From Polytrichum commune (taxonomy: Eukaryota > Streptophyta > Polytrichopsida > Polytrichales > Polytrichaceae): DNA of 64,000 nt. Below, one piece after another: positions 11,022 through 61,414 of the stretch (its first letter is position 1; the number at the start of each line of letters is the position of its first letter). The stretch covers positions 62,823,554 through 62,887,553 of the forward strand of contig OX485803.1 of assembly GCA_950295325.1 (NCBI GenBank), in the 5' to 3' direction. The notes below the pieces were generated by a model. That model saw only the letters and a program-made list of their open reading frames with translations, was not told the DNA's origin and did not search any database. The position numbers were made by a program, and so were the translations under genes.

Positions 11022-11276
11022 TGTCGCGGCCCGCATTTTCTTAAAATCTTAAGAAACCTTGTTTTGAGTTTAAAGAATAGGTTTGACTAAGGAAAACATA
11101 ATAAGTAGAGTACTTTATAGGTAGATTGTTAGGTAGGTTATTTAGAATTGAGAAGAAAAATTAAAATCCTTAAAATAGTTTAAAATATCGAATTGAGTTA
11201 GTGTTAGGAATTCCGTTTCAATTCGGAAACCTTAGAGCGGAGCAGACCGCACAGGCGACAGCGGGCCGCAACCACC

Positions 11277-14803: not shown

Positions 14804-16152
14804 TTAATTTAATGAATACGCCACCACCGTGCTACGACACTCTTGCGACTCCTCCACATTGTCGGTGTGTCGCCCAGTGTCATTGCCTGCCTTATTTACA
14901 TCCCCCCTCGAAATTGTGAAATTGGAGGCGTCCTCCTCTACGGCACTTTGAGGGAGTGTGGCCCCTGCACTGTGAAGGGAGGGGAGCTCTAGAGAGTTTC
15001 GGACGTGCACCTGTCAGTCTAAGTTGCCGGTAGAGGTTGGTCGGAAGGAGGCTTTGGAGTGGCGGCAACCTAGGGAGAGGGTGGAATGTTCAATGTTGGG
15101 GTTGGATAGGCATGCTTTGGTATGTAGAGTGTATGACTATTAGATGAAGGCAACATGAGATTGGTGGGCATTAGTATGTTGGCCTCAAGAGTTGCAAACA
15201 CCACATGAGGTCTCGCCTGCAAGCTTTGCATTAGGCTCATGAATTGCTAGCTATGGGCTAAGAACTATTGATTTTGAGCCATGAGATCGGCGTGCCTGCG
15301 AGCGGATTCCAACCTAGCTTGCTCCATCTGAATTTGGATGGCAACCATCTTCTTGGCGTGCAACTCGTTGGCCTCATGTAGCTATTGGTCAAACTCTTCC
15401 TTCATTCTTTTCTCCATTTTCTCATCCAATTCAGACACAGACATTGGTTCTTTCTTCACCTTGCCATGTTGGGTAGGCAAGGCAGGAGATGACATTGTAC
15501 ATCTTAACCTTATCATTGTCTTCATCGGAAAGGTCCAAGACCGTGCCTTTAGGGTATTCTTTGTATGGAGTTTTGTTCCCCTTCCGTCAACTCTCACGGT
15601 TTAAAGAGATGTCGGGCCTCAAGATCAACTCCAGCACATCCCTGCCCTCCATAGGTGGGAGCTCTACTTGTTGAGACCCCCCCCCCAGAAGAAGTTGTGC
15701 ACCCAGCTTCTGTCGCAAGCTCCACATCCTTCTCTGCCATAACCCTGCAATACAAGATGGACCCGCAGTGGAAAAAACCCAACACGACAAGTGGGAGTCC
15801 CAAAAAGTGAGAAAATAGGGGCATGAGGGACCTTTAATGGAGTGACGGTAACATGTGTCTCGTGCGAATTCATGTGGTCTGCGCCCAGGATAAAAATGCC
15901 TATGGTAGGATCACAAACAATGCTGTGTAAATCTTCATGTATCGTAGGCCACTCCGTTGGGGAGTTGGGATCCTGGTTTCCGTCAGTGTTTGTCTCCATT
16001 TCATGAATTACCTCATTTCAAGAGGCAAGCGATACTAGAGGCTCGGAAGAAAACACGTTCACGATGTCCATTTTAGAGGCAATAATCATGTGGGCCATTG
16101 CATCATCGTAGTTGCAAATGTCCATAAAAGAATTCACCTGCAACCTAAACAT
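14804..16152 (-). pseudogene. Gene B remnant in Element 2, upstream part
   Basis: The minus strand from about 16152 gives LQVNSFMDICNYDDAMAHM and IIASKMDIVNVF, lining up with LVVNNYIDAKDEDEYQVHRV and KTSTMDLDDM at the start of gene B exon 3 in Element 1. At 15460..15382 it reads KVKKEPMSVSELDEKMEKRM, matching RVKEEALTVAELNAKLEQKM, the start of the gene B coiled coil. At 14.95-14.80 kb GRHTDNVEESQECRSTVV matches AQHTDMVIVEETQGN. Stops and frame changes break it in several places. The parts matching gene B exons 1 and 2 are absent. Confidence 0.7.
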
Positions 16153-16257
16153 CTAAAATACAACAACGAAATTAAGAGGGGGGCAAATGAGATCAGAACA
16201 TATTATAAATGAGAGGCTAGATATGACTACAAGTAACAACATGTAGTAGTATAATTT

Positions 16258-16350
16258 ACGGACGCGCGCACGTAAAATTACCTAGCCAAAAGATGCTAGG
16301 AAAAATTGAACATATGAAAATACATGTGAATTATACGGATACGTGTTTGT
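16258..16350. repeat. Two degenerate Element-2 palindromes
   Basis: 16258..16273 reads ACGGACGCGCGCACGT and 16335..16350 reads ACGGATACGTGTTTGT. They lie just upstream of the gene B remnant exon at 16152, the position where Element 1 has its intron 2 pair (56983 and 57083). The placement of two sites in this intron is therefore conserved between the lineages. Confidence 0.6.
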
Positions 16351-16359
16351 AAAATTCAT

Positions 16360-18930
16360 CGGAGGATATGAGGTAAAGTAGGTATCTCTATGGTTTCAAA
16401 GCCAAAGAGTTGGTTTGTACTTATCCTTAGTTCAAAAATAACATATTTTAAATTCAGAAGCCTGGTGAATGAAAATGTTCTAATTATCCTTCCTAAATAT
16501 CCAATTAGTCCAACACAAGTTTAATTGCCGTGGAATAAACAACTTAGATCCTTCTAATATAGTTATACTATTAAAACTTAATATAAAGTGGCTTAAAAGC
16601 TCATATGATGTTTAAAGATTTTCAACTAACCGAGACCAAATATAAGAAGAGAAGATTTTTGTGAGCAACCTCAATGAAATGCTCATAACTTCTATTCATA
16701 TTTTTAGAATGGAACGAAACTAATTAGATTAGAAAAATAACTTCAAGATCTTTTTAGACATATAAACCACAGAAAATAAATATTGTAGCAAGCTGAAATG
16801 AAGCTGCAAAGTCAGCAATGCCAAAATAAAAGTTATTCACAGAGATGCCTATAACTTCTAGAGAAAGTTGTACAAATTTATAAGACTAATTCTTTTTGGA
16901 AAGAAAAATTTAAGAACTATCCACGAATTTAAAATATGTTATAATTACTAATTAATGTTATATTTTATAGAAACTAATTATGTTTTACCAATAAAAAAAG
17001 ATGAATTAAAGTACAACTTCAACACAAAGCTCAATAATTAAATGAATTATAAGAAGAAAAAAACTTTTATTAACTAATAAATCACCTCGCTGCATCCTTA
17101 TAACTACTTCCATTCAAAATTATTAGGTAATTAACAACGGGTCCTTCAATCCAGGGTAAGGTTGTTCAAAGTTAAATGAGATTGGGGTTGGAGAAGAGAG
17201 AGACTAGGCTTGAAGGAATTTGGACCTTCGAAGGTCCGGAATCAAGAAAAAGTGAAGACTAACAGAGATATTTTAATAAAACTTCAAGATCCCTTGAATA
17301 TGGTTACCTCACATGGTGGGATTTCATTTTTTTTGTTAATTTTTGCTTCACTACATACATTTTTGCATTGGATCCTTTAGCCACTGTTGATTATTTTTTA
17401 TTTAAAGGTTTTTTTTTAGATTTATTTATTTAGTCTATGTTTTTTAATCTAGTTATCTAAATGTCACTTGCGAAAATGAATCTCACATCGTCAAAGCAAA
17501 TCGGCTAAGTCTAAGGACATCTTCAATGATTAACGTTGTTTACTTCACTTGTTTCATTTTTTTAGCGTATAATAATTTTGCACTCTTGGAATGTTCTAAA
17601 TTTTAGTCTTACCAACTATTTATTTATTGGTTTTAGCTTACTCAATTCTAAAAAAATAATCTTATAATCCATTGTCGCTTGTCTTTTTAAAATTTTATAG
17701 ACTAAGATAATTTCTAAATCTAAACTTATTCAACAAACCTTGTATTTAACAATTAAACTTTTATTTATCACTACCACTAGATTAATTTGATGAAGGAATA
17801 AAAATAACTCTTCACATGAAAATATGAAATTGAAGAAAGACAAACAACTCCTCATCAATACAGCATAAATAAGTTTGATATCTATGAAGATATTGTTAAC
17901 TATTTCATTCATTCTAGTAAAAGTCTTTAGGATATCAATGTAAAAATCTATTCGGAGCTCCTACGCCAAGTAGATTGTATACATAGTCTCTTTCATGAGT
18001 TCTTAAGGGTGTGGGGTGGATAATGTTTTTTGGAATAGAACGTTAGTTCTAACAGGCAGCCGCCCAGTTCGTGAAAACTTATGTGTCAAAATTAAAAGTT
18101 ATATACCTTCCACTTGTTTCACTCCCTTCTCTTTTAGACGACATCAATCTCTTCCGTCTTGGCTGAGATGTATATGCTATGATAGAAATCATATTGGAGG
18201 TTCATCATTGAATTATAGAGCTGGACTTCTGCTGCGGACTTCTATTGCTTTACAATCCAAAGCTATATATTTGGCTCAAGGAGGGCATGTAACTAGTATA
18301 TCTTGAAGGGTCTAAAGAAAGGTTCGTAGAAAATGATTTCGGCAACTTCTTGTTTCCAAACCTCGGGAAATATACGGAACTCAAATATTGCGAAAATATA
18401 TTCTCGAGTGTCATGTCTTACAGAGGCTCTTCAAACATGAGTGTTCTATTTGCCGAACTTCATAACTGAAGGGACTGTGCAAAATCTTACAACCCTAAAC
18501 TTCGATTTCTTTTTCCTATTGAGGAACTTCAAATATATTATTATTTCATTTTCATCGATAATTTTATTTATTTATTTCTCCTTAATCATTGGAATACGAA
18601 GGGAGTATCTTATCAAAGCTCATATGAAAGCCTCATTGATGTGATATTCATCCTTCAATTTTTTCTGATTTTTCTAAACGATCTTATCAACTGTATTCGT
18701 ATGGTTGCGGGTGGGCAACAATTTGGTTATCTTCCTTATGGCCATGGTTTTCTTCTTCATATATTCACACCACTTCTTCATGTAGTATGTGGAAGGCTTC
18801 ATATGCTTCGGTTGCTTCATGAAGATTTTGGGGTAGAGCAAAGTTTTTTTAGAATTTCGAGAAGGATGCGCTCTGTCACTCTATAGAGTCAACTGTCAAC
18901 TCTACTTCCCAAAGTCTCCGATTAACGAAT
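16360..18930. other. AT-rich interior of Element 2 where transposase and gene B exons 1-2 are missing
   Basis: Only short random frames. I searched both strands for remnants of the Element 1 transposase (LDNCAKDNK, GHTHDDID) and of gene B exons 1-2 and saw none. The region is strongly A/T-rich. Confidence 0.5.
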
Positions 18931-19274
18931 ATAGTGTTAAAAAATAATACCCCTTCTTATATTCACATTGATTTGTACACTGTGTGAAGATTATACCCTT
19001 GGATATTGAATTATAAGTAATATGAGGTCCTATATAAAATATAAAATATGGTTTTTTTAAGATATAATATATTGTGGTATAGATTATCTTCATTTTTTAT
19101 AATGGAGCATTTGTGTGTTTGTTTGTGTTGTTGAATGTGTAATGATAGTATTTTTGAATCCCAAAGTATTGAAGTTAGAATTTATGATTGTCATTACAAA
19201 AACACTTCCATTTGGAACTCAATGTTTCCTTGTGCTAATCCTTGATAATGTAGTCTTAGTTTTGGCACTTAAAT

Positions 19275-19516
19275 CACTATATTTGTTAATCGGAGACTTT
19301 GGAAAGTCTCTAAATAAATGCAAATGGTTTAATGCCTGGTCCAATTTCTTATTGTGATGACATGTATTTTTACCAAATTGGTTAGTGCCGCCCACGTGAA
19401 TTGGTTTGTGAAGACACATTGTATATATATTTGTGTTTTCCTTGTTCTCTATTTGAAACCCATGTCCTTAAGTAGTCTCAAAATCATAGAAAAGTCTCCA
19501 ATTACCGAATATAATG
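19275..19516. mobile_element. 242-bp deletion derivative of the Element 1/2 family
   Basis: The left side begins CACTATATTTGTTAATCGG and continues with GAGACTTTGGAAAGTCTC, as at the left end of Element 1 (44879). The right side read inward begins CATTATATTCGGTAATTGG and then GAGACTACTTAAGGACATGG, as at the right-type ends at 4793 and 61408. It has one end of each type and no coding content, so it looks like a MITE-like internal deletion product. No clear target duplication. Confidence 0.75.
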
Positions 19517-44750: not shown

Positions 44751-45282
44751 TAGTTGAAAGTTATCTACATTGACGCTATGAAACATGGCAACAATAAAAA
44801 CTAGACTATAAGGCACAAGAGTCATGAAGGACATAACAATGGTCCTTGTTCTTCATAATGATTTACCATCATATGTAACACTATATTCGTTAATCGGAGA
44901 CTTTTGAAAGTCTCAAAATAAAATATGCCCATGGTTTGGGATGCCAATATTGTGGGCATACGGAATATTGGGAACATCAAGAACATGACGATTTAAAATT
45001 TCGCACGTAAAGCATATTCTTATTACTAAAAATAGAGAATTTCAATTAAAATGAAAACGTGAGCTCTTTGTGGAAAATAACAATCAACTCTAAAAAAACA
45101 ATTGGTTTATGTCATTATAGAGTTTGGGGTGCGCATCCCATAAGTAAGGCTCTTATGAATTTGGATGGCACATCCCAAACGTATACAACAATGGAGTGTG
45201 ACAAGTCCACTAAGTCTAATAAAAACCAAGTCTACTAAGCGCCCATGTTTTTCGCCATTAACTCCCACCTAATATGTTATGT

Positions 45283-48200
45283 TTACACATCTCCATCTTC
45301 CGCTTCATATCCATTCTCGGCGTCATTTACCGCAGCTGCAATACGTGCCAAGTTGTCTTTGGCAAAATCTATATGTTTTTGGGGGATGGTCATTGTTTCT
45401 GTTTTGGAACCTTTGCGCGGCTTCCAAGCACAAAGTATAGTATCCGTGTTTATCCAAACCGGTGTGTACGCTAAGTCCACTGTCCACTTAAAATTCTTTT
45501 TGGTGTCCCAACCTAAATAAGTGCGTAGCACGTTTTGGTCTTTAGTGCTTGGATGACAATATTCCACCTCAATTTGACGAAAGTTGGGGCTAGTTCGAAC
45601 AAAATTGGGTGAAGACAATGCTTTCACCAACCAAATTGGCTTGGGATGCTCCTCATCCCCTGCTCGTACGAGGACCAAATAACCTTCATGGCAATCAACA
45701 CGAAACGACGGTGCCGGTCGATTGCGGGCAGGGCCAACGTAATGCTCGTCCATTGCGAACTCTTCACGAACGTCTCCATTGCTAAAAAACATGGTGTCGG
45801 ACTTGACAACCGTTAAACGGTTTTGTGGCCAAAATCCTTGTGTTAAAGTTGTACGGGTGTCGCCACCAAGTGTCATTAGGGCCGAGCGAATGCGATCCCA
45901 ATACGCAATCAAAGGTTCATGAGTATCTCTAACACGTCTAGTGATGTCCTCCTCATACAACTCTTTCCAATATTCAATGAATCCGGATATGCCTTTGATG
46001 ATTTCCAGCCCATTCCTCATGGGGTCGGGTTTGCAAGGCTTTGGATCCCCATCCGGGAGCAAACATTTCTCATCATTATCTTGACGCCATACGAGTATAC
46101 CATCATCCGGGCCCCAATTAGGAGATGTGCACAAAAGCTTAAATTGCATAGCCGGGAGACCATCATCCTTTATAAAGAACCGGAATTGTTGTGTTTTGGT
46201 ATGTCCCACCAAACGGTCCCCTCCCTTCAACATGTATGGCTTGATGAAGGCCTTGAAATCTGGTACTTCCTCAATCATGTGCGGAATTACCGGCATATGG
46301 TCCAAAAGCATATACGATTTCATAAAAAGTGGTATGGTTGGAAAATCTTCTTCATGCAACTTCATGCTCCACCGTCCGAAAGACGCATCAATGTCATCGT
46401 GTGTGTGTCCCACCATCAAGAAAGACACAAACACCTCCTTGAAGATTCCTTTCGCCACAAGCAAGGACCAAAAACAAAATACATATCGACATTTGTTATC
46501 CTTCGCACAATTATCAAGTTGAACGTGAAGAGTTGGAGGCAAAGGTTTCGCACAAAGAGGTTCTCCGGGTGGCTCCGGCAATGACGACATACAAACCTCT
46601 TTCCCCGCAAGCAGTGCTTCGTAAAGGGGTGTCGTTCCACAACCATCAAACAATGCACGTGATGAATGTACCGGTGGCTTCTCAAGATCGCGCAAGAGTT
46701 TTGCAAATGATCCCACCGTGTGGTTAGCATCGCCAGGGTAAAAATCCAGACCATAATGGGCATACTTAACGTCTCCATGTCCATGGGCAATCATCCCTGG
46801 GAAAAAACAAACGATCCATGAATGACAACAATAACAACAACAACCCTAAACGGATGTATGAAGTTGAAACCTAACGCAAACACATCTAGTAAAATTGGAT
46901 AGAATTTGAACACATATTTGTGATTTCCTACAAACCCGTGACAGCTACGGGCAACTTGAAGAGTCCATCCGTGGCCTTTATTTTCCGTGTATAACAAGGG
47001 CATGCGGTCTTGGCGTGGTCTATTTTGTCATGGATGATTGTTAGAACCTCTGTAGGCCTCATTATGGATAGAGCACGGTTCTTGTAGTAATCTTGACGGT
47101 GAGCCTCTTGGTTGTTGACATGTTCAATATATTTTGCTTGGTGTCTGGAGTGGGATTCGGTGCCTATGGGGTGGGCGTCTCGAAGACCTTTGTATTTTTC
47201 ACACGTCGTACACCTAGCGAACTTGTCCCCAGGTCTCTTCAAAATGTATTCAGCAAACTGTTGGTTTTTAATTACACTCAACTTGGACAAAGAAATGGGA
47301 CCACATCCCGCTATGCGACCCACTTCGTTAATGTCCGTTAATATGTTCTTCCATTTGTACATGTGGGCAACACCATTTGTACAACTTTCTCCCCTAACGA
47401 CAATGTCCTCGTCTTGTGGGGCATTGCATCGGCCAATGGGACTATGATGGTGGAGAGTGTCGCGGAGGCTTGGAGTGTAGCCTCCCGAGGTTTCTTTGTG
47501 CCCGAATTTCCATGAAATCGTGAGCAGCGACCCAACGATGAATACTTTTGAAACCTATAAAAGTCAGCCTTTGGCACGGCGTGGATGGTATACCACGCGG
47601 TACAACACACATCCACATTCTCAAGTGTGACCACCTTATGCCCATGGGTGTCAATGTGCACATTTCTGTGGACCTCGAGTTTCTTTGCCGATCTCATACG
47701 GAAATCGGCAAGCCACATCTCTTGACGTAGGGACTTAATTTTCTCCCGTGGGAAAAACTGGCAACATTTCCGATAGCAACAGTCCTTGGCGGACACAAAA
47801 CGGATAGATTCGTCTCCCAATATGCAATCCCATCGACGCTCCTTATCTCCTTGAGGCACACGGTTCGAATCATATTTGCGTAGGCCTTTGCGAGGACATA
47901 TTTTGGCCAACAAAGCTAATTGTGTTTGCTTATGGCGCCGCTCATGGTCCAACAAGCTCACTCCGTCATGGAGAACCCGACAAAAAGGCCATTGACGCAA
48001 GGAAAATCTCCATGTCACCGGGACCTCAAGCGGAAGCAATGAATTCAAGATGCACACACCAACATCGTTCGGACCAAGGGGGTTGGCATCCACACAATCA
48101 CGGGGATCAGAGTTTCTACATATGTCATCTGCCACAGGGACACCAATGTCGTTGAGTAGGACGACATCAAGGCCAACCCATTGCTCCCTCCCGAAACCGG

Positions 48201-48411
48201 CACACAACGGAATGTCATCGTGGTCATCCTTGGAATGTAGAGATTGTTCGTGCACTTCTAAAGATTCATGGGAGGATGTATCCACAAACTCCCCCATCAC
48301 GTTTGGCAGACCATTACAACCCGCCGAAGGGGAAGAAAGTTCACACTCACCATCGGAGGACGAAGAAATTGTGGACAACTCCCATGAACTATATGCCACG
48401 GGCAGCGCCAT
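45283..48411 (-). pseudogene. Element 1 transposase-like gene, two exons, one frameshift
   Basis: Minus strand, ATG at 48411 (MALPVAYSSWELS) just after an acceptor-like TTAG. Exon 1 runs to 46936, an intron of 139 bases (46797..46935, GTTTGT..CCCAG) keeps phase, and exon 2 ends at 45283; about 1000 residues. Exon 1 has Cys/His-rich KDCCYRKCCQFFP, KKPREATLQASATLSTIIVP, CTTCEKYKGLRDAH and IIHDKIDHAKTACPCY. Exon 2 has LDNCAKDNKCRYVFCFWSLL and SFLMVGHTHDDIDASFGRWS. The Asp-bearing motifs IIHDKIDHAK, LDNCAKDNK and GHTHDDID are the likely RNase-H-type catalytic core. The sequence resembles DUF7869-type transposon proteins, from memory and unchecked. A one-base frame change lies at about 47340..47362 (frame VQMVLPTCT to KWKNILTDINEVG). 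Everything else is open, so decay is recent or this is a base-call error. Confidence 0.8.
46797..46935 (-). other. Intron of the Element 1 transposase-like gene
   Basis: Donor GTTTGT after ..VAVTG, acceptor TTTTTTCCCAG before GATGATTGCCC. Joining gives VAVTGMIAHGHGDV without loss of frame; unspliced, the frame stops within two codons. Confidence 0.85.
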
Positions 48412-48719
48412 CCAACCTAAGCAAACCACTAATCAATGACCAAAACAAGAAGCACCGCAATGCACACAAAAGCGAAAACGAGAGTTGTGTAGATATATGG
48501 CTCAAAAAACACAAACAACTCTCGCGGCACCGTTGGGGGACCTCACATATGAAGACGAACGTGCGTTCGAAAACAACGCCATGACAAGCAAATACTACGT
48601 GGGAGTCACACGCCAATGGACAACGGCATGCAATTGTGGTACATATTACCCGTGAAGGGTTTTGGGTCGATTTGCTAATAAAACATGGAAAGTGTTGCCA
48701 ACCAACAAAGGAGAGCATA

Positions 48720-49930
48720 CGCACATATATTCACGAACGCGCGGACGAGAACATCAACCCAACAAACAATGAATTGTAAAAGGGATAAGCAACGTGCATT
48801 GCTCAGGAGCACCCAAAATGCACATGCATCATTATCCACATACAACAAGCATCGTAATTGAAGGGCATGTCTTTGACGGGTGTGTGTCTAGGAACGAACG
48901 ACCCCAAGGTAGAGCCTAAACTCAAGGGTGTATGTATACGAACGATCGTTCGTAAGTCCTGGCCGAAACATATGGGCGTATGCATACGAACGATCAATCA
49001 TGTGTTCTAGCCCTCACCGTGTTTGTAAAAATGTTGACCCATCAGAAGAAACATCTATAGCGTAGTAGTAGGAGGCATATGCATAAATGAACGGATGTTT
49101 CTGTATAATTGCAAAATAATATCAATTGATATTTATGAACGCACGTTCGTGAATACCTGACCATCATATGTTCAGTTGGACATAACAGAGTCACGGGAGC
49201 GTAGGTGTCTTTGAGGGTTAGGAGGAAAATATACGAACGCACGTTCGTATATCATTGAACATTTTAGCGCCCACGACTACCTATAAGTAGGTCAACGTGG
49301 AGTATTATCGAATGCTCTACTTACGAACGCACGTTTGTAAACCACTCGCATTACACGAACTTACATGCGCCTGTATCTCCAAGAAAATATATACGAACGC
49401 ACGTTCGTATATAATTGAACATTTTCGTGCCTATGACTACCTGTAAGTAAATCTACGCTGAGTATGTCCAATGCTCTACTTACGAACGCACGTTCGTAAA
49501 CCACTCGTATCACAACAACTTACGTGCGCCTGTATCTGGAAGGAAATATATACGAACGCACGTTCGTATATAATTGAACATTTTCGTGCCTGTGACTACC
49601 TGTAAGTAAATCTACGCTGAGTATGTCTAATGCTTTACTTACGAACGCACGTTCGTAAACCACTCGCATCATAACAACTTACGTGCGCCTATATCTGGAA
49701 GGAAATATATACGAACGCACGTTCGTATATAATTGAACATTTTGTGCCTATGACTATCTGTAAGTAAATCTACGCTGAGTATGTCTAATGCTCTACTTAC
49801 GAACGCACGTTCGTAAACCACTTGCATCACATGTCTGAACCACTCGTCTAAACCACTCGTCTAAACTACATGTCTAAACCACTCGCATCACATGTCGCTA
49901 CCAAATCATCTTTACGAACGTGCGTTCGTA
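48720..49930. repeat. Palindrome cluster A upstream of the transposase
   Basis: Perfect ACGAACG-NN-CGTTCGT sites start at 48938, 49233, 49393, 49482, 49552, 49641, 49711, 49799 and 49914. One-mismatch sites start at 49135 and 49323; more degenerate copies lie near 48732 and 48985. The cluster lies 0.3-1.5 kb upstream of the transposase ATG. The central pair is CA in most of these, AT at 48938 and TG at 49914. Flanks alternate between TAT..ATA and CTT..AAC types. Confidence 0.95.
49215..49830. repeat. ~159-bp tandem repeat, four units, two palindromes per unit
   Basis: Corresponding palindromes recur at 49233, 49393, 49552, 49711 (160, 159, 159 bases) and at 49323, 49482, 49641, 49799 (159, 159, 158). 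Within a unit the two sites are 88-90 bases apart, and about 70 bases separate one unit from the next. Unit bodies (ATTGAACATTTTCGTGCC, GTAAGTAAATCTACGCTGAG) are nearly identical, so the array is young or homogenised. Confidence 0.92.
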
Positions 49931-52340
49931 AACGTCCGGTATTTGCGGCGGTATTTGCGGCGGTATGTGCAACCTATTGTGTACCTGGGAGGTATAGGGT
50001 GGGCGCACAAGAAAATGGTTTGTGCTCGTTCCAGTCAGGTCTGTGGAGCGCACACTTGGTTGTGTCGCAGAAAAGAGCTCTGATGTGGGGGGAAGAGCTT
50101 TAAGTACCTCCCCCCTGATGGTTCAAAATCCCTTGGATGCTATTTAAAAAGCGGATTCCCGCCGCCTACTTTGACCTAACAATATGCCATTCCATCCATG
50201 CGGAATAAATAAATAGCATTATGTATGGAACATGTCTTGTATGCACGCAACATATTGTAAATATGTCAATCGGTCGCACACCTTAGTTGTCACCAAGGTC
50301 TCACATGAATATATGTCTATATTTATATGTATATATGAATTTCATATTGTATATTGTATTATATTATATTATATATACATATATATATATAATATTAGAT
50401 TTATAATGTCTATATAGGTTGATGGTTAACATTGAATTTAAATGATTTGCAACTAAGGTGTGAAGTCCAAGTTAATTGACGATTGATTATACCTAATAAA
50501 GTGATGAAGGGTTTAGGGTAATACATATTCACACACACAATGAGGTAAGAGTAGCTAAGAATATGTTGTGGAAGTCCCTAAAATTGTAGGTATCATATGA
50601 TTCACATAAAAAAAATGCCCGTAATATGGTCACCAACTGCATGAATACCAATAAAAAGTCGCTTAATCCATAATGGTTTGTACTAGGTAAATTGAGGACA
50701 TTTTGAAGTAATCATACCCAATATATGTAGGTAAGGTCTTCATTCAAATGTAACACTAGGTTTGAAAATAATGAATTAAAATGGCATGATTGGAAATGAT
50801 CTATCACTTTGGAACGGTGCATACGATAATGATAAGAATTGAAACCATGCCTACGTGAAGTCACACTTACAATTATTAATATCATGTGTTTGACGTCCTA
50901 TGGGAAATAAAATTTCCTCCACCTTTTGTAAAGATTTAGGATAGCGCAGGCTCGCCACAATATGAAATTGAGTCTTTTATCCAATATTTTGTTTTTAAGG
51001 AACCATTGAACACCTTGAAAGACATATTGTCCATGAAAAATTATATTTTAAAACACCATATACACATGCTTGCGGGTGGATTTTTCATTTGAATCCACCC
51101 CCTACACTTGAGGCTCGCCAAACATTGGACCATATTATGAACTATAAGTTTAAATGCAATTGATCATTGGTGAAATTTAAAGTTGATGGCACTAGTATTC
51201 GTTTGTTAGTTCAAGTCGACAACTAATTAAATGACTTGACCTCCTAAGAAGGGTTGGTAAGATAAAAAGATGTAGGGTTTAGGGGTTAGGGTTTAGGGTT
51301 TGGGGTTTGGGGTTAGTGTATATGGTTTGTGAAAGTTGTCTAATATGTGGTTTGCGGGCTTAGGGTTTAGATCGTTAGTGATACTTAGGACGGGTTTAGA
51401 CTTGGAGTCAAGGCTCAAAAATGGGTTGGGGTGAAGGAAATCCACGCCTCTCATTGGTAGAAAGGCTAGGATTTTCCTCTTCAAGTTTACACCATGAGTT
51501 GGGGCCAATCACAAATAAATTATTTTATTCATCATGACAATGGCCTGAAGCCTTGGAAAAGAGAGCTCCCAACATTGTGGACTCTTTCCCTCTTGTTGAG
51601 GCCATTGTTAGAGCTTTTATTCGCTTATAGTAGTTTATTCTTTGAGCATTGAGTAGGAGGGGAGAAATTATAAATTTATTATACTTTAATCATTATCCAT
51701 AGAATAGTTCATGAGTACGTTGGAACCTCTCATAACCCTCTCATAATTGCAACCTCCAAATGGCCCCAACCCCACCTAAATAGGTTTACACATGAAAGCA
51801 ATGAATGGAGTTAGGTTACTTTCTTATTAATGGCCTTGGGGGCCCATTTGCATGCCACATGGGACATATTGGCCTTCGTTCACAATGGCCTTGGCCCCAA
51901 GTCTAAACAGGCCCTTAGTGTACTATGCGTTCGTATTTAGAGTATCTAACACTAAATATCATATTAAGGGTGGGTCAAGCTAACACCTCATGAAATTAAT
52001 GACATCGTATTGAAAAATGAATTTTCCCCCACCTCTTGAGGAGAATCTGATAGCCCCTCTCCACAATTCAAAATGCGTCCTTTATGTATGTAAAATTTGT
52101 TTGAGGAACCATTGAACAACTTTAAGGATGTGTGGTTCATGAAAACTCTATTTTGCAAAACACCATACACACATTGGAGTGGATTCTTCATCGAAAACCT
52201 ACTAAATGACATGCATTGTGTTGTACAAATTAACTGAACATACTTTTCTAAAATATGTTTACAAGGATTCCAACTGTAGAGGTATTAAGGGGATACGGAA
52301 TGTAAAATTCATGTCCCCGAACTAAGCTCCCACCATTTCG
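49931..52340. other. Central AT-rich region of Element 1 between the two arms
   Basis: No gene supported. Contains an AT dinucleotide-rich tract at about 50340..50400 and telomere-like repeats at 51273..51316. No palindromes of the ACGAACG type occur here. Confidence 0.5.
51273..51316 (+). repeat. Interstitial telomere-like repeats (TTTAGGG variants)
   Basis: About six units of TTTAGGG and its variants (GGTTTAGGGG, TTAGGG, TTTGGGG) in a row. TTTAGGG is the common plant telomere repeat, which supports plant origin of the window. Confidence 0.75.
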
Positions 52341-52382
52341 TATTTCTTAATTCGTAAACCCTCATCCCTCCCTATCCCCATT

Positions 52383-52440
52383 CCCCTCCCATCCATCCCC
52401 ATCCCCATCCCCATCCCCATCCCCTCCCCCATCCCAGCCC
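52383..52440 (+). repeat. CCCCAT microsatellite and C/T-rich leader
   Basis: Tandem ATCCCC units followed by a G/C-rich segment to about 52620 with CCTCTTCCTCTCCTCCTC. The composition is that of a 5' untranslated region or promoter-proximal sequence and may mark the start of the gene B transcript. Confidence 0.5.
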
Positions 52441-52625
52441 TGGCCAGTGGCTGTCAGCCACGTGGCCGCCGCCAGGAAACCCTAGCGGTGCCGGCTACCT
52501 CCCCGCGCCTCTTCCTCTCCTCCTCATTTGTCATTTGGAGCAGAGGAGGAGGGGAGAGCTTAGGTGCGGCGAAGCCCTTGCCATTTGTATAGCCGCATTT
52601 TATGTTTATTCTTGGCGCGCATTGT

Positions 52626-52930
52626 CAGAAGCTTGAGAGTAGGATCGCTTGAGAGGTTGATATTTGTAGAAATCTTGAGAAGGTTGAGAGTTTTGGAAAG
52701 CTTGAGAGGTTTAGAGTTTTGGAAAGCTTGAGAGGTTTAGAGTTTTAGAAAGCTTGAGAGGTTGAGTGTTTTAGAAAGCTTGAGAGGTTGAGTGTTTTAG
52801 AAAGCTTGAGAGGTTGAGTGTTTTAGAAAGCTTGAGAGGTTGAGTGTTTTAGAAAGCTTGAGAGTTTTAGAAAGCTTGAGAGGTTGAGTGTTTCAAAAAG
52901 CTTGAGAGCTTGAGAGTTTCAGAAAGCTTG
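52626..52930 (+). repeat. 26-bp tandem repeat (AGAAAGCTTGAGAGGTTGAG type)
   Basis: About 11 units of 26 bases such as GAAAGCTTGAGAGGTTGAG plus TGTTTTA, with some units shortened. Each contains the AAGCTT word. Position upstream of gene B suggests 5' transcribed leader. Confidence 0.85.
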
Positions 52931-53429
52931 TGAGTTGTGTGTACATCATAATATTTGTAGGATTTGTAAATAAGTTCTGAAGGCTTGAGAGTGTGAGAAA
53001 GGAGCGAGGGTAGAAATTGCATTTGAAAGCGAAATCAGTGCATTTGTGAGCTTTCTGGATTTCTGAGTAGCAGGCAGCAGGTTTTGGGTGTGCAACAATT
53101 CAATGTGAATACATGTTTCCTTTTCAAAACACTTCTTTCCAATCTGAAATTGTTCTTTGTTGAATTCCATGTGTCATGTTTTATGCATTATGAGCTTTGT
53201 CCTGTTTTGTATGAATTAGGACTTTCCCCTTCATTATGAATTCTTAGTCACTGAATCTCAATGTTGTTGTCATTACATATTTCACTTTGTGTTTCATCAT
53301 TCTGATCAAGAGTTGCAGGCAGAAATCCAAGCAATGTCGATAGCAACATTCATAAACCCATACATACGTATACGTATGTATACATATCCATATATGTATG
53401 GAAAGCATTTATTATCATACACAGACGAC

Positions 53430-54190
53430 CACATTTACGAACGATCGTTCATAAATGTGGCATTTATACATCTAATACACCAAGCCCTTTACTTTTACGA
53501 ACGCACGTTCGTAAAATACGCACTCACCTTCTACTTTTACGAACGTGCGTTCGTAAAATACCCACTCACCTTCTACCTTTACGAACGTGCGTTCGTAAAA
53601 TACGCACTCATCTTCTACTTTTACGAATGTGCGTTCGTAAAATACCCACTCACCTTCTAATTTTACGAATGTGCGTTCGTAAAATACCCACTCACCTTCT
53701 AATTTTACGAACGTGCGTTCGTAAAATACGCACTCACCTTCTACTTTTACGAACGTGCGTTCGTAATTGATTAAATAAGGAACATCTTGTATTTGCGAAC
53801 GTCCGTTCGTGAACATACACTGAATCACATCAATATCCTAGATTTACGAACGATCGTTCGTAACCAGGGATCCAAACACACCCAAGATTTACGAACGCGC
53901 GTTCGTAAATCTACACAAAGGCATGGACATAAATATGTGTACCCAAAAACTAATAAAAATGAGCCCAAAAAATGAAAATAAAAACGAACCCTACACCTTT
54001 TGATTACGCCATATGAACATCAAAGCACAAATACGAACGCGCGTTCGTATTTATTGAAAATGAATAACACCTTGGAAATCAAACCAAATTTGCGAACGAA
54101 CGTTCGTAAACAAGAACCAACAGATGTCTTGCCAATAATAAATAATTTATTGACGACCCGCAAATGTCAGTAACGAACGCGTGTTCGTAA
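53430..54190. repeat. Palindrome cluster B upstream of gene B, including a 42-bp phased array
   Basis: Seven sites start exactly 42 bases apart: 53497, 53539, 53581, 53623, 53665, 53707, 53749; those at 53623 and 53665 carry one C-to-T change. Further sites start at 53437 (one mismatch), 53795 (GCGAACG arm), 53846, 53891, 54033, 54092 (GCGAACG arm) and 54173 (one mismatch). The spacer in the array is a CTCACCTTCTA-type sequence. The last site ends 34 bases before the gene B ATG, within the probable leader intron. Confidence 0.95.
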
Positions 54191-55518
54191 ATGCAATTCT
54201 GAATGTGTCTGTTACATTGCAGATGGCTAGACCAGTCAGAAGCGCAATCGAGATGTTTGCGGTTCAGTTGGATCGGCTTCCGGAGTCAGTGACAGATGAC
54301 AATGGGAACGATAATTACGTCCCCAAAGATGACTTCATGGGGGAGTGGACGGCGCTCCCGGAGAAAATCGAGGGTGGATTGTTCGCACTGAGGTTCACAT
54401 ACGAGTTGGAGACAAGGCCAGACCAGCCGGAGCAGTGGGTGCAAATGAAGACATGGGATATAGAGTCCATAGAGGCATAGGGTGATTTTGTTATCTTGGA
54501 CTTGAAAAACAAAAAAAACCACATCAACCTCTTGCTGGACTTCAGGAGGCACCCTTTCTCCCATACATACGCACAGAATATTGTTGTAGAGGATGCCAAG
54601 CATTTCGACCTCGTGAACCTTTTCACGAAGTACAGCCTCAGCCAGCATTGGACAGCCAGGAAGTTGACTGCACTGGCCCTAAATATGTCCAAGTATAACA
54701 GTGCCGTCGTGGAGGCCAACAAGAAGAAGAAGAGTCCCAAAAAACCTACTGCATCCGGAGCAGGAGGTTCTAGAAGTGCGCCGCGGCCAGTGCCTTCAGC
54801 TAGCAGATTGTCAGAAGGGCCAAGCAGACACTCCACGCCATCTAAAAGAACTCGGGACGATATGGAGAAGTCTGGTGTCACGGAGACAGCTGAGGTCAAC
54901 TCGCCGCCTGTCATGCCGACTCCTTTGAAGAAGGGGGAAAACCCTGATGCGGCAAAGGCGACTCGTATCCTTCGCGACTTCAACAATTACTCGAAGGATT
55001 GCTGGCCCATGGGACGGCACTTCACCTTCAACGTGGACTGCTTCAAATGCGAGAAATCCCCCAACAAGTGGGTGGTGAGGTCACGTGAAAGCGGAGGTGT
55101 GAAGTGGCAAATCAACAACTTGATGAATAACGTGTAGTGGGATAGGCAAACTGTGTGCGTTATGCCAAATGGTTTCACTTCCCGTCCCACGGAGAAAGAT
55201 TGGGCAAGAATCCAGAACGGGGAGTTCTGGATTATTGATGGACAGTTCAGCCTGGAGGCATCGCAGATCATCCTCAAGGATGATAACTTCCAGCATGAGC
55301 TGAAGGGGGACCTGCGCTACTGGAAGGCGTTCCTGGTGTGGTCAGACGACTGGGACAAACTCCGGAAAATTTCGACATTTTAAAATTCCGGGAATAAGAT
55401 CAAGGCGTTTGAGGCATCATGGGCAGCAAACATAGTGGCTGCGAGAGACGTGTGGGTGGCACACGGGTGCCCACCAAAGGAGAGGGAGAATGCGAAAAAC
55501 CAGTCTCCACAATGGAAG

Positions 55519-55634
55519 GTAAGTTTACGAACGAGCGTTCGTAATTCTCAGGTTCCTTTACAACATTCTTGATCATTTTATTTACGAACGTGCGTTCGTA
55601 TTTGATTGCCCGCTGACATTCCTTTCTAATGCAG
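55519..55634 (+). other. Gene B intron 1 with a pair of palindromes
   Basis: 116-base intron with GTAAG donor and AATGCAG acceptor. Perfect palindromes at 55527..55542 (centre AG) and 55584..55599 (centre TG) occupy over a quarter of it; the first begins 9 bases inside the donor. Confidence 0.85.
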
Positions 55635-56960
55635 GCGTTTTGCGATGCGATGGTGGACAAATTCTCTTCCATCGACATGAAGTCCACTTCAACGAAGTCA
55701 GTGCTCGAGCTGAAGGGCGAGCTCCGGCTTATTTGTTGCAACAGAGACACCTGGGATTTGTGGACCCAATTTTTTTATGCTCACAGTGCGGGGGATCTCG
55801 TCAACCCCAACACTGAAGAAAAATATAATCAGGAGAAGACTGGGGAAGCGCCTCCGTTGCTGAGGGAATTTTTTAGGCCGCTTCAGGGGTTGACGGAGTC
55901 GGAATTGCAGAGATGTGCAGTTCATGCTCTTGGGAACACCGTCGGGAGAACAATCCCCTACCCGAAGATTTTTTTGAAGAGGCCAAAGCACAGGCCCGGA
56001 ACGTACTCCATCAAGGAGTGGTGCAAACATCGCAAGTTGAAGACCAACGCAATGAGGGAGTTGGGCGCACTAGTCCCGGAGTACAAACTCTTCGAGGCCG
56101 ACGGGGACATCAACTGGGCTGGATGGAAGGAGTTCAAGGTCGGGTATAACATCAACGGCTCTTCCATGCGTAGGCTAGTTAAGGAACACGCCTCCGTCTT
56201 GAAGCTGAAGGGGAACAAGCGGACCAAGAAAGCAGAGACAGATCCCTAGGAGGTGGAGTTGTATATAAAGTTTTTGGAAAGGAAGCGGAGGGCCACATTC
56301 GAGGGAGTGGCCAGGTTTTGTTTGGTAACCACCGGGCTGGAGAGGACCACTTTTTCTAAGTGGGACGGCACCATCAGCAGGGCCGAGGTGAGGGAGGACC
56401 GCAGGGGTTGCCCATTTGCCCTGATTGATTTCAGGGGGATCCCAGGATGTGCGAGGCAAGGGGCAAAGGATTTTCCCTTTTACAACCCTTTCATGGCAAA
56501 GTTTCAAGACTACAGATCGCCTGAAATGAGGGAGCCTCACGTATGGCTTTGGATAGTGGAACAGGAGAAGCTATCCATTATCACGGAGCTGTACGAAAAT
56601 ACCATCAAATTTGAATACAGCATCTACCACAGCACCTACGTGCCCGCAAAAACGGAAGGGATCGTGGCCATCAACGAGGCCAGGGGCAACAAGCAGGTGG
56701 GAGCTGTCAGCTTGATCTTCTTAACGTACAATGCTCTCAGAAATGGGAGAGCGCCTGTGAAGGCAAGCAATACTTTCAAGAAGATATACAGCATCCCTCA
56801 CCCCCCTCCCAAGGAACTGCTGCAGGAGACACTGTACACGGTTTTCCCCGCGTTGGAGCTCAGGTTGGAGTTCTACGTGTCAGTGTTGCAGAGCTTGGTA
56901 ATCGCTGGAGAGACGGTATACAACGTCTTTGGAGGCAGCAAGTTCATGTACGCGGCCATG

Positions 56961-57130
56961 GTAAGCTGTCATTCTTAGATTTACGAACGCTCGTTCGTAA
57001 TTTTCATTGATTTAAATGTTATAATAGTTGTGGCATTTTTTTCCCTTTGCGTTGATCTGGCCTTGTCTCAATGTTGATGTTTACGAACGCACGTTCGTAT
57101 ATGCTGACATGTTTGGAAACGTTGGTACAG
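56961..57130 (+). other. Gene B intron 2 with a pair of palindromes
   Basis: 170-base intron with GTAAG donor and GGTACAG acceptor. Perfect palindromes at 56983..56998 (centre CT) and 57083..57098 (centre CA). The counterpart region of Element 2 (16258 and 16335) also has two palindromes. Confidence 0.85.
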
Positions 57131-58115
57131 ATGCTGGGGTTGGTCGTCAATAACTACATTGACGCCAAAGACGAGGATGAATACCAGGTCCACAGGGTGA
57201 AAACGTCCACAATGGACCTCGATGACATGTGTGTCCCCAGGGAGGACTTCAACATGCCCGTCGACGAGGGCATGCCGGGCTTGGAGACAGACGAGGACGA
57301 GCCCGCCCCCTCCGTGGACGTGGACGCCATCTTGCAGTCGTTTAACATCACTCCTTTACGGATGTTGGCGCCAGCGGGTCACCCTTCTGACCCCCAAGGG
57401 ACACCGGGGGCTATACAAGATCCTCCGCTGGGACAACCCAGGATGTCCTCCCCGCTAGAGTGTCAGGTGCGGAACCCTTCGGCACACCTGGCGGCTGTTC
57501 GACGTCAGTGTCTCCCAGGCCCGTCGTGGTTCCGAGGATGGAGACCCTCGACCTCCTCGACCAACGCTCGCGTCCATCCTTGGACCACTTCCGGAACACG
57601 AGGAGGAGGATGAAGAAGACGCCATACGTGGAGTTGCCGGAGGGAGCAATCATCGAGGTGTCCGACGAGGACGAGGGGGACATGGACATCATGGCGGAGC
57701 TGGGGGTGGATTACGACAAGAACAAGCGTGTGAAGGAGGAGGCGTTGACCGTTGCCGAGCTGAATGCCAAGCTAGAGCAAAAAATGAAGGAGGAAATGGC
57801 GGCTGCGGCAGAGGAGAGTGCAAGAAATATGGCCGGCATGCAGGAGGCGCTGCGGGAGTCCGCAGCAAAGACGGACGCCATATTTGAGATGCTCAGAAAT
57901 ATGCAGAGCTTCTCGGCGCCAGTACAACAGCCTTACCCCTTCCCCGGAGGATACCCCTCCCATACCCCCCCTCCAGGCCTGTTCCCCGGAGGACCTTCGC
58001 ACCCACCAGCACCACACCCAACGCCAGCTGGGAGTCCTCCGCCCCTTCAATTGACTGCCACCCCCGTCAACTCGCACGATGCGATAAGGGCTGCCATACG
58101 CGAGGACGAAGATTT

Positions 58116-58131
58116 ACGAACGCGCGTTCGT
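58116..58131 (+). repeat. Palindrome inside gene B coding sequence
   Basis: ACGAACGCGCGTTCGT lies in the open frame and is translated within EDEDLRTRVRESSGP. Arms are perfect, with five CpG. Confidence 0.9.
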
Positions 58132-58503
58132 GAATCTTCAGGTCCGGCAGTCCTAACCCCTCCCCTTCCAAGGGTAGGACTGGCCTCAGTCACTGCCACC
58201 GCCTCTTTGACAGTCGTCCCGAGGGTAGTGCATAGGCAGGGCGATGAATCTGCGCAACACACTGACATGGTCATTGTGGAGGAAACGCAGGGGAACCCCA
58301 ATGACGCGGCAGCTGTCCAAGGAATGGACGTTGAGAGCCCTGACCTGGGACGACATCCATCCGCGGAGATGGAGGATGTCCTCATGGACACTCTCGACCT
58401 GGGCGGAGACGACGACGCGGACCACATTGTGCAGACCCAGGCGTCACAGTCCGAGCGTGCCACAGACGCCATGGAGACAGAGGCGGCTGGCCCAATGGGG
58501 ATT

Positions 58504-58519
58504 ACGAACGCGCGTTCGT
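58504..58519 (+). repeat. Second palindrome inside gene B coding sequence
   Basis: ACGAACGCGCGTTCGT translated within GITNARSLIKEEG, a different frame phase from the site at 58116, so the conserved unit is the DNA and not a peptide. Confidence 0.9.
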
Positions 58520-58609
58520 TAATCAAAGAGGAGGGAACTGCTCAGTCCAGCGCCGCTGCCCCTCCCCCCGATGACGAGGTAACTCTCCTCTGAGAATACC
58601 ACTCATTTG

Positions 58610-59023
58610 ACAAACGCGCGTTCGTAACCACTAACCCATGCGCGTTGTGTTCTTGGCGGTTCCTGTCCATCAGCATCACGAGGCGTGCGAGGACCCTTCT
58701 CTACGTGGACCCTTAGCCCGATAAATTTTGTAGAACACGGCATGTATTTGCCATAGGAAACTGTGAAAAATTATCACGTGAAACAATTGTAAATATTCAC
58801 CGAATTCATATATGAGCAGATGATCTTTGCGTCGCATCTCCCAAACTTATTGTATCGTATCGCATCTTGTATTATGTATGTTCATGCGCATCATTACACT
58901 TTCACGCCCACTTTCACCCTCCTTCACGAACGAGCGTTCGTACATGTGCTTCTATCCGCGCTCACGAACGAGCGTTCGTAAATGATGCGCCACCCCAGCA
59001 TTCATTCACGAACGCTCGTTCGC
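58610..59023. repeat. Palindrome cluster C between genes B and C
   Basis: Sites at 58610..58625 (one mismatch), 58926..58941 and 58964..58979 (both perfect, centre AG) and 59008..59023 (one mismatch). The segment is otherwise non-coding. Confidence 0.9.
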
Positions 59024-59140
59024 AAGTCTGCACTTGACCACATTCTCCTTGCACTATTTTCCTCGCATAATCGTCTTTTCCTCAATGCAATGTTGTTTAT
59101 TGGATCATAGAATTAAACTAGTTGAGTTGTTAATCACAGA

Positions 59141-59907
59141 ATCCCCCGGAGATAGGTCGGAAACCCTCGACCAGTGGACGTCTTACCCGAAACAAACCGT
59201 TCGTCGTGTTCGACCTGAACGGGGTGTTGTGTCACACCGAACACATCCCCGGGGTCCCCACGCGTCCCTTCCGTCACCCCGACGAAAGGGACTACAACGG
59301 AGAGCTCGACACTCTCATTAACCGCAAGGCTATCCGCGGCCGTCCCGGCCTGCGTGACTTCCTTCGAGAGGTGCTCGATGTAGCTCACGTCATTGTGTGG
59401 AGCTCCATGGTCATGGAGAACACAGAGCCAATCGTCGACTTCCTCTTCCGCGATCTTCCGAGCCCTTGCCTCATCCTCGGCCAAGAGGATTGTGATGAAT
59501 TGCTCGACGAAAAGGGTCTGCCGGTTCCAAAGTTCGGCGGTTGTGGTGGAGGACAACAATTCCTCAAGGTCCTGAGGTCAAGACTGTGGCGGGGCATCCC
59601 CCGGTTTCAGGGGGTACCCCACGGGTGGTGGCCGACCCCCGAGAACACCGTCCTCGTCGACGACAGCCCCACCAAAAGCGTCTTGAACGCCCCGGGGAAC
59701 GTCATCTTCCCCGCCACTTGGACCGGCGATAGGAACGACACGTTTTTGGTCGATACGCTAGCGCCTTACCTTAGAAGGCTTGTTGTCCACGCCGGTAGCA
59801 TACCATTTTTTGTTAGGTCCAACCCCATAGGCAATGTGGGTTTAAGCCCCCGTGATAATGTATTCAAGAGCATCATGAGGCTCGCCAAACTCAATAAATT
59901 GATTTGA
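59141..59907 (+). CDS. Gene C: FCP1/HAD-like phosphatase-domain protein carried by Element 1
   Basis: The frame opens after an acceptor-like ATCACAG at 59140 and runs to TGA-free TGA-adjacent stop at 59905..59907, about 255 residues. HAD motif I reads VVFDLNGVLCHTEH; the usual DxDGT becomes DLNGV, with Asn at the second Asp. PGLRDFLREVLDVAHVIVWSS matches the RPG..FL......V.VWTS region of FCP1 domains. Motif IV is NTVLVDDSPTKSVLNAPGN, with the paired Asp. Domain order and spacing fit a CTD-phosphatase-like FCP1 domain. Plants have host FCP1-like proteins with DLNG in place of DLDG, so this was probably captured from a host gene. The same gene is in Element 2, so it has travelled with the family through divergence. 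No start ATG precedes motif I in this exon, so it is probably a downstream exon, perhaps spliced to gene B. Intact here. Confidence 0.8.
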
Positions 59908-60019
59908 AATTCCTCCATGTCTTTGCTTTGTTTCATGTGGTTCACATTTACTAATGCTTGCTTCATTTTTGGATGTCTTTTGTTGTTGTGATTGTTGTTG
60001 TGTTTATTCTTGACCATAG

Positions 60020-61058
60020 CCTGCCCCCATATGCGACGCCCCTGTGGTCGACGTCCCTTCCCGTCCCCTCTCGCCCCCTGCCTCCCCTTCCCGCGACGTC
60101 ACGGACTTCCAAATGCCATCCCTCTACCAGTTCTCGGCGGTCGACGCGGCCTCGGCCGTGGATTACTCCCGCGACGTCGGCATCGACGACGGCGTCGTCA
60201 ACAGCCCGCCCCCCCGCACTAGTTGCCCGCGCCTACGCCCCATCGCCCTCCCCCCTCTCCAAGGAGAAACGGACGCTCGTTCGTTTGGGGCACCTCTCGC
60301 CCTCTAAGGACGACGGCGTCGCTCATCGCGGGCCGAGCCGGCGTCTCTGCATGGAAGGCCCCCGTTGCCACACCTCCCCCGCCGACTCCGTTCCTCCCCC
60401 CACAACGTCCTCCGCCATCGTGAGCCCTCCACGCCTCGACTCCCTCCCCGCCACTCACCAATACAATAGTTCCATCGGCTCCGGATGCTCCCGTCGACGC
60501 CCCCCTCGTTCCCACCGTTCCCCGCATGGACGTCCCCAAAGCCAAGGTGCCCTCCTCAACCCTAAACCCCTTTCCCGCTTTTGCTTCCCTTGTCTTCCGT
60601 TTGCGTGCCGTTCTCTTTACGAGCGCCCATCCCAAACCACCCTCATTATTCTCCCCACTCCATTCCTATTCTTATCTTCCTATGACATTGTTTCGCAGGT
60701 GGCTACCCGCTCGCTTGGTGCCCGGCCCTCCTCCACGTCCTCCTTGGATAGGCACGCCCTCAAGGCCGCATCTTCCGAGTCCGATCGTTGTCTGGCCCTC
60801 CGGAGAAGCGCAAGACGTTCCCTTTCGCAAACGCCCTCGCATTCTACTTATAATACCACCTCGTACAATTCGGGAGCGCGTCCTGAAACATGCAAGAACG
60901 ACACATATTCCTATCCAGGCAACACACAAGGATACAGTCGTGGGCCTGAGATTTTTAGAGCCATGGAGGCCGCCAAAAAAAAGGACTTAGCCGCAAAAAA
61001 AAAAATAGTGGGTCGGACTAGTGTGACTAGAAGCGTACTAGTGGGACGGACTCCCTAA
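60020..61058 (+). pseudogene. Gene D: element ORF of unknown family, conserved between Elements 1 and 2
   Basis: Begins after an acceptor-like GACCATAG at about 60019. Exon 1 blocks: SRDVTDFQMPSLYQFSAVD, DYSRDVGIDDGVVNSPPP, then in a shifted frame APSPSPLSKEK and SRRLCMEGP, then in a further frame DAPLVPTVPRMDVPKAK, ending at a GT donor at 60547. Intron 60547..60698 ends TTTCGCAG. Exon 2: SLGARPSSTSSLDRHALKAA, SDRCLALRRSARRSLSQTP, RGPEIFRAMEAAKKKD, stop at 61058. Two frame changes in exon 1 break it. Block order and spacing match Element 2 (9.53-9.09 and 5.5-5.15 kb). Ser/Pro-rich, probably largely disordered; function unknown. A near-palindrome at 60269..60284 lies in it. Confidence 0.65.
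60269..60284 (+). repeat. Near-palindrome within gene D
   Basis: ACGGACGCTCGTTCGT: the left arm is of the Element 2 type (ACGGACG) and the right arm of the Element 1 type (CGTTCGT). It is the only hybrid site in the window. Confidence 0.8.
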
Positions 61059-61414
61059 ATGGGCTTAGGTGTAGAACATATTTAAGTGCTTACTTTCTAT
61101 GCTATTCCAAGTTACTCAAGACATTGATGGTATTTCCATTATAATTGTATTTCAATCCCAATTAATTCATTCAACTTCCATTCATTCTTCGCATCTTCCC
61201 TTCCATTCATAACGAGTTGTCATTTCATACGCAACTATTTTCATGTATGCCTCACATTTTTGTTCACTTCCATGCCTTTATGTATAATAATAGTAGCATA
61301 CCATTATACATATGGGATTTTTAGTCGTCATTATTGGTCCAATTTTGAAATGTGCATCCTTATATAGTCTCATAATCAACAAAAAGTCTCCAAATACCGA
61401 ATATAGTGTTATGT

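Follow-up and report, generated by a model that had tools for sequence, protein, structure and literature searches.

Dispersed palindromes with two family-specific half-site alleles in a DUF7869 transposon family of Polytrichum commune, and a candidate element-encoded reader

A 64,000-nucleotide stretch of the Polytrichum commune genome (GCA_950295325.1, contig OX485803.1, positions 62,823,554 to 62,887,553 of the forward strand; hereafter the window) contains a transposon, Element 1, throughout whose interior the palindrome ACGAACGNNCGTTCGT (ACGAACG-NN-CGTTCGT) recurs. What reads this palindrome, and to what end, is the question raised by the locus. We propose that the palindromes are operator sites for a two-fold symmetric, sequence-specific protein of the element family, most likely the product of the element's gene B. 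Bound at 30-40 sites across leaders, introns, one coding exon and the 3' side of gene B, this protein would mark the transcribed DNA of the element and would most probably keep it expressed against host silencing, in the manner of VANC anti-silencing; copies lacking gene B would rely on protein supplied in trans. Binding by a protein, gene B as the binder and anti-silencing as the output are each what we infer from sequence. That an element-encoded dimer reads the palindromes is, in our judgment, quite likely; gene B is the best candidate for encoding it and probably does so, with less assurance. To the whole chain, from element-encoded dimer through gene B to an element held open to transcription, we assign a probability of about 0.5.

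A script scan of the window returned 25 perfect matches to the motif and 12 at one mismatch; no match had two mismatches, and eight had three. Three of these last eight lie outside Element 1, three overlap true sites and two are located elsewhere within Element 1. The first-pass annotation had counted about 36 copies (25 perfect and some 11 with one mismatch), in good agreement with the 37 found here. All 37 lie within Element 1, where an order-1 Markov model predicts 4.6e-5 perfect sites. They span 48555-60284, so that the earlier span of 48938-60284 was right as to the element but began 383 bp after the first site (48555, one mismatch). Hereafter, sites of this kind are called A-type, and those with G at arm position 4, ACGGACGNNCGTCCGT (ACGGACG-NN-CGTCCGT), G-type. 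W denotes the window copy of Element 1; the other A-side loci are A540, B, D566, C640 and M3, and the G-side loci are G1, G2, H1 and H2. The element and its sites are as follows.

44877..61410: Element 1, 16,534 bp, bounded by the terminal inverted repeat (TIR) pair AACACTATATTCG...CGAATATAGTGTT, with the same ends in other copies
48555..49929: palindrome cluster 1, comprising 12 sites upstream of gene A, in a probable leader intron (from a sequence reading of the ATG and a TTTAG acceptor)
53437..54188: palindrome cluster 2, comprising 14 sites ahead of the gene B ATG (54223), in a probable leader intron, with CAG immediately before the ATG
55527..55599: a pair of palindromes within intron 1 of gene B
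56983..57098: two palindromes in gene B intron 2
58116..58519: two palindromes in the coding sequence of gene B exon 3, starting at 58116 and 58504
58610..58625: one palindrome directly past the gene B stop; a G-type site occupies the equivalent place in G1 and in Element 2
58926..59023: three palindromes ahead of the NIF gene
60269..60284: one half-A/half-G site, ACGGACGCTCGTTCGT, in the last open frame, unchanged in W, A540, B and D566

These positions confirm the earlier placement of sites in both gene B introns, in coding sequence (exon 3) and on the 3' side. Sites had also been placed in both promoters; the two large clusters do lie just upstream of two ATGs, but probably within leader introns. 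No site was found in the stretch between the two leader clusters (49930-53436) and, in the three full-length copies of the Element 1 type (W, A540 and D566), none within 3.6 kb of the left end or 1.1 kb of the right. The arms of the 16-bp palindrome described at first were confirmed, but the true consensus of representative sites, TTTACGAACGNNCGTTCGTAAA, is longer. The central dinucleotide is variable, as had been noted, taking 14 values in 84 representative sites, with CG, CA, CT, TG and AG the commonest.

The genome (408 Mb in 64 contigs) was then scanned, with the reversed pattern or a per-search control for comparison. Perfect A-type palindromes occur 5602 times, versus 4 for the reversed control. 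The 100 listed places fall by eye into five clusters, each of at least three sites, of which two were read: C640, and 3 kb at C1:2367 kb that proved to be a truncated A-type copy with 89% identity to A540. Both clusters read of the five listed lie in element copies, and nothing in these two suggests that the motif is equally common outside such elements.

The spacing of the half-sites is strict. Spacers of 3-14 nt yield 15 places when pooled (control 29), compared with 5602 at 2 nt. The fetched A-type DNA holds 118 exact pairs at spacer 2 and 7 pairs that overlap at -2, with no other spacer up to 20, and 263 of its 281 half-sites have a partner of at most one mismatch. A relic reading ACGGACG..CGTCCGC in a second, decayed element of the window (Element 2) prompted a search in which arm position 4 was allowed other letters; it gave 1398 places (control 109). 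The G-type site accounts for 1394 of them (control 1), and C or T combined with A or G at this position at a single place, a simple ACGT repeat (control 88). Arms of mixed A and G type occur at 145 + 129 = 274 places; most of the 100 listed have the spacer CT, which is also the spacer of the fixed half-A/half-G site in the last open frame. Within TTACG..CGTAA, a different letter at arm position 5 was found at 39 sites (control 0). Many of these stand next to gene B exon 2 places (H1 and H2 are examples), and most of those that do are symmetric (ACGGCCG..CGGCCGT); we read them as small drift within G-side elements.

The two alleles at arm position 4 separate two families of elements. G1 is a full G-type element that shares the first 15 bases of the TIR and the gene order with the A-type, and its G-type sites occupy comparable places. 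Gene B exon 2 of G2, H1 and H2 is 76-86% identical to that of G1, and all three loci carry G-type sites. The allele tracks the family, being G-type in 4/4 G-side loci and A-type in 6/6 A-side loci; G1 additionally contains a single A-type relic, which has a mismatch, and a single hybrid site. In introns 1 and 2, and at the spot just past the gene B stop, the allele is A or G according to the family. The earlier statement that the motif occurs nowhere else in the 64 kb holds for the exact motif, but Element 2 contains three relics of its sister.

4793..19516, minus strand: Element 2, a decayed G-type relative with gene B and NIF remnants
10694 (one mismatch), 10809 and 16258 (two mismatches each): relic G-type sites of Element 2, with 16258 on the intron 2 side and 10809 and 10694 past the stop

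Some G-type sites continue outward as perfect palindromes, 34 bp or longer, whose outer arms differ.

When W, A540 and D566 are aligned, the palindromes of introns 1 and 2 stand out as islands of conservation between copies. Across introns 1 and 2, the region past the stop and the NIF leader, 107/112 core columns are invariant, as are 12/16 in the spacer, 41/48 among the three flanking bases and 260/468 elsewhere (core vs elsewhere, Fisher p 3e-18); gapped columns were dropped, and the core was set by motif similarity in any row, which slightly favors the core. Free variation between copies, raised at first pass as a sign against a functional motif, is not what the introns, exon 3, the site past the stop or those before NIF display, but the leader clusters do differ in the number and place of their sites. 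CpGs amount to 24-30 per 100 bp inside the motif vs 1.9-3.2 outside. Regional CpG retention was also considered as a methylation footprint and was dropped, as no consistent regional difference survived strict masking.

One copy separates the sites from gene B. C640 (C1:639070-648560; 9.5 kb), a non-autonomous copy, is bounded by TIRs and a CATA duplication, and its 40 palindromes form tandem and inverted arrays. Among matches longer than 120 bp it keeps the ends, the between-cluster stretch, approximately 230 bp of the gene A 5' end and part of NIF, and no gene B exon is matched over more than 120 bp. Because it retains 40 sites without a gene B exon, sites are kept in cis in the absence of gene B. 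The suggestion of the first-pass annotation that a dimer reads two half-sites over a fixed spacer is strongly backed by the 5602 sites at spacer 2 against 15 at spacers 3-14, by two symmetric alleles that track the families, and by a copy that keeps its sites without gene B. We presume this reader to be element-encoded because the two-fold code has switched in concert between the families, and a single host reader is disfavored because two strict alleles coexist in one genome.

Other explanations have to be set against this evidence. The sites could form an internal transposition enhancer, at which the gene A transposase or an accessory factor assembles the transposition complex, as at the TnpA sites of En/Spm, with no role in silencing. 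We consider this rather unlikely. It would suit C640, whose 40 sites are kept together with the TIRs and come within 938 and 830 bp of the ends, and the N-terminal exon of gene A, which also differs between the families (69-76%). It fits poorly with W, A540 and D566, where no site comes within the distances of the ends given above, with a TIR whose first 15 bases are common to A- and G-type while the palindromes differ, and with the 84-86% identity that the families share in the C-terminal exon of gene A. A host activator or repressor might instead read the palindrome, the transposon hitch-hiking on it. This explanation gains from the element-encoded reader being itself something that we infer, and we hold it improbable, since the genome contains two strict alleles that, across the ten loci read, each keep to a single element family, and since the 100 listed A-type sites all fall in clusters of at least three.

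Small odds likewise attach to RNA hairpins, by which the palindromes would act in transcripts, in splicing or as double-stranded RNA. Sites do lie in presumed transcribed parts, the A-type introns 1 and 2 have them near both ends, and flanking bases extend the palindrome, clearly in the G-type and at single columns in the A-type. However, the loop of an RNA hairpin has a minimum size above 2 nt, so the innermost pair cannot close over the spacer, yet its G and C are fixed, and arm position 4 is limited to two paired states. Nor is there a wobble bias in the sites with one or two mismatches when these are read in the presumed sense: wobble-keeping changes (C>T plus A>G) number 23 vs 21 that break a pair (G>A plus T>C). 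By their effect on RNA pairing, mismatches divide into 36 broken, 21 wobble and 4 compensated. Scarcely credible, finally, is a neutral origin by inverted duplication or template switching with spread by tandem duplication. It would fit the site-bearing tandem units of the leader regions, the variation of leader clusters between copies, and the perfect palindromes that reach 34 bp or more and have arbitrary outer arms. It is largely refuted by the intron comparison, in which single sites are kept amid diverged flanks; moreover, CpG-rich sites survive amid CpG loss and position 4 has two alleles only.

To return to the element-encoded dimer, gene B is its best candidate source. The ratio of non-synonymous to synonymous substitution rates (dN/dS) of gene B within families is 0.07-0.27, a mark of constraint. 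Between A540 and the G-side, identity is 69% and 86% for the gene A exons, 42-43%, 53-54% and 30-32% for the gene B exons and 63% for NIF; across the families generally, the gene A exons are 69-76% and 84-86% identical. Within the A-type, gene B exon 1 is 87% identical, exon 2 82-86% and exon 3 72-79%, compared with 88% and 94-95% for the gene A exons. The synonymous divergence (dS) between A540 and D566 is 0.37 and 0.19 for the gene A exons, 0.92, 0.87 and 0.64 for the gene B exons and 0.13 for NIF. This strong variation along the element suggests that element parts recombine between elements, with gene B and its introns as an older block.

Profile searches offer a clue to the gene B product. 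No Pfam match exceeded the cut-off, and NCBIfam gave nothing above its own. Below the cut-off, three of four gene B fragments match DUF6551 and DUF1015 (one DndB too) and the A-type fragment matches GmrSD_N, in each case at a DGQHS stretch; one fragment also matches CENP-K, away from that stretch. Three of the four match phrog_1033, a ParB-like family, at E 0.003-0.03. A tblastn search gave 17 phage records at E 0.9-10, which is not significant; ParB-like annotation is present in 3 of 15 listed. Two of these three phage proteins are DUF6551 and match GmrSD_N and ParB-type models, and the third matches only GmrSD_N and a ThiS-like model; presumably DUF6551, GmrSD_N, ParB-type and related families share a fold. 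With hhalign, a profile of nine phage ParB-like proteins aligned to this part of gene B at 96% probability over 23 columns, whereas 14 controls (five other element parts, eight column shuffles and one reversal) reached at most 1%. Comparison with solved structures gave chance matches only (best E 0.16), comparison with plasmids gave no match, and a search of viral contigs with two peptide patterns per scan confirmed no gene B relatives.

Several observations count against our interpretation. The A-type gene B fragment matches GmrSD_N only (E 0.028) and no ParB-like phrog; the ParB/Srx match extends over 23 columns only, with S in place of the R of DGQHR in 4/4 rows; and the AlphaFold models are useless, with a predicted local distance difference test (pLDDT) score of 33.8 for exon 1 and 42 for exon 2. 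Gene B also evolves faster within the A-type, so its divergence alone would not name it as the reader, and the A/G switch is one phylogenetic contrast across which gene A and NIF diverge as well. The flanks present a further difficulty, as examined in 94 representatives of 204 sites that are not fully independent. Among 22 G-type representatives, complementarity continues beyond the core (joint count 92 pairs vs 64 expected); among 72 A-type representatives it is seen at flank 1 (p 0.03), flank 2 (p 0.005) and flank 5 (p 0.0025), with a joint p of 0.25. A simple protein-site model does not predict such complementarity; inverted duplication or a cruciform could produce it. Lastly, the masked CpG ratio is raised in the W, A540 and D566 gene A leaders (0.63-0.82) and in C640 (0.57, 0.96) vs 0.40-0.44 between the clusters, but is not raised in the gene B leaders (0.38-0.52) or the G1 gene A leader (0.38).

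The remaining features of Element 1 are as follows.

44873..44876: left target site duplication ATGT (right copy 61411-61414)
45283..46845, minus strand: gene A C-terminal exon, encoding a DUF7869 protein, the presumed transposase (Pfam PF25273, E=4.7e-39, 134.4 bits, cut-off 26)
46928..48432, minus strand: gene A N-terminal exon, two frames in W and a single open frame of 636 codons in A540
54223..58593, plus strand: gene B, three exons, with four in-frame stops in W and open in A540; exon 1 bears the ParB/Srx-like DGQ stretch
59134..59907, plus strand: NIF gene (FCP1-like C-terminal domain phosphatase fold; Pfam PF03031, E=5.3e-15), with motif I DLNGV

Six whole or near-whole loci were fetched. 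A perfect 4-bp target site duplication is present in 4/4 copies with both ends intact (W, A540, G1 and C640), a count that omits D566, whose right end is changed, and locus B, which has no right end in the fetched stretch. A540 is inserted in a relative of C640, and the uninserted C640 sequence has a single TAGT target. The N-terminal exon of gene A matched only DUF6695 in Pfam, below the cut-off (E 0.14). As gene B of A540 is open in the standard code, the window copy of gene B is damaged; an alternative code, with TAG and TAA as glutamine, was rejected on the same ground. FCP1-type enzymes have DxDx as motif I. Phosphatase activity of the NIF protein is uncertain, since its motif I reads DLNGV, with Asn for the second Asp. 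The dN/dS of the NIF gene between copies is 0.1-0.24. In a genome search with gene A, 150 of 1354 candidates were scored, every one of them matching at no less than 90%; with gene B exon 2 (97 of 1152 candidates scored), at least 11 rows including A540 share the top score, at 100% and stop-free. By these matches, part of the element family is young. Outside the elements, an open frame at 24115-24846 of the window is probably a host gene exon, which we take to resemble the propeller part of prolyl oligopeptidase.

If our interpretation is correct, these elements, of a type unrelated to VANDAL, would add another, separately evolved example of transposons that use a dispersed code to address themselves. 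The code would be readable to the base, with two half-site alleles and presumably one reader for each, and the switching of specificity by a transposon would become testable with two proteins and two oligonucleotides. Such readers could also offer sequence-specific tools for opening silenced chromatin. In the open-licence literature we found no account of DUF7869, and nothing on ParB in eukaryotic transposons, on dispersed palindromic motifs in plant DNA transposons or on bryophyte anti-silencing.

Among known systems, En/Spm offers a protein that acts on its own element: TnpA is reported to activate and demethylate En/Spm (PMC10398659). Our candidate reader would resemble it in acting on its own element, an action linked to demethylation there. 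The architecture differs. En/Spm has subterminal clusters of motifs, a TIR that starts CACTA and a 3-bp target site duplication, whereas the sites here are internal, with none near the ends of the three full-length A-type copies, the TIR starts AACACTA and the duplication is 4 bp. Pfam searches of the element proteins gave no match to a CACTA transposase model.

Bacterial ParB-parS is brought to mind both by the gene B DGQH stretch, which matches a phage ParB-like profile, and by the site, as parS is likewise a 16-bp palindrome. The differences are that 23 columns align, that the R of DGQHR is S, and that the present case is a eukaryotic nuclear transposon, with no ParA seen. An outright ParB-parS-like system, in which the gene B product, with a ParB/Srx-fold domain, loads at the palindromes, spreads over the transcribed DNA of the element and excludes silencing while the NIF-like protein acts on RNA polymerase II, with ACGAACG and ACGGACG as family-specific loading codes that also serve copies without gene B, would be a bold extension of this analogy, and we think it quite unlikely.

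The first-pass annotation named VANDAL as the closest parallel, which is apt for the pattern of motifs and not for the element. VANDAL transposons (Mutator-like elements) have a MULE transposase, no long TIRs and a target site duplication of approximately 9 bp, whereas in Element 1 gene A encodes a DUF7869 protein, TIRs stand at both ends and the duplication is 4 bp in all four intact copies. In Arabidopsis, VANC21 of VANDAL21 and VANC6 of VANDAL6 are reported to act via short motifs located within introns and upstream of genes in the elements that encode them, and these motifs are spread by tandem repeats and differ between related families (PMC5735166, PMC10398659). The VANDAL motif described there has 9 bases arrayed one way; the present site is a strict 16-bp palindrome with a fixed spacer that also occurs in coding sequence. 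In both systems, a family-specific short motif is dense in the non-coding parts of the element, has spread in tandem and has a counterpart of different sequence in a sister family. The reader in VANDAL is an element-encoded protein of changing specificity, and by analogy such a protein would read the palindromes of Element 1 and its relatives.

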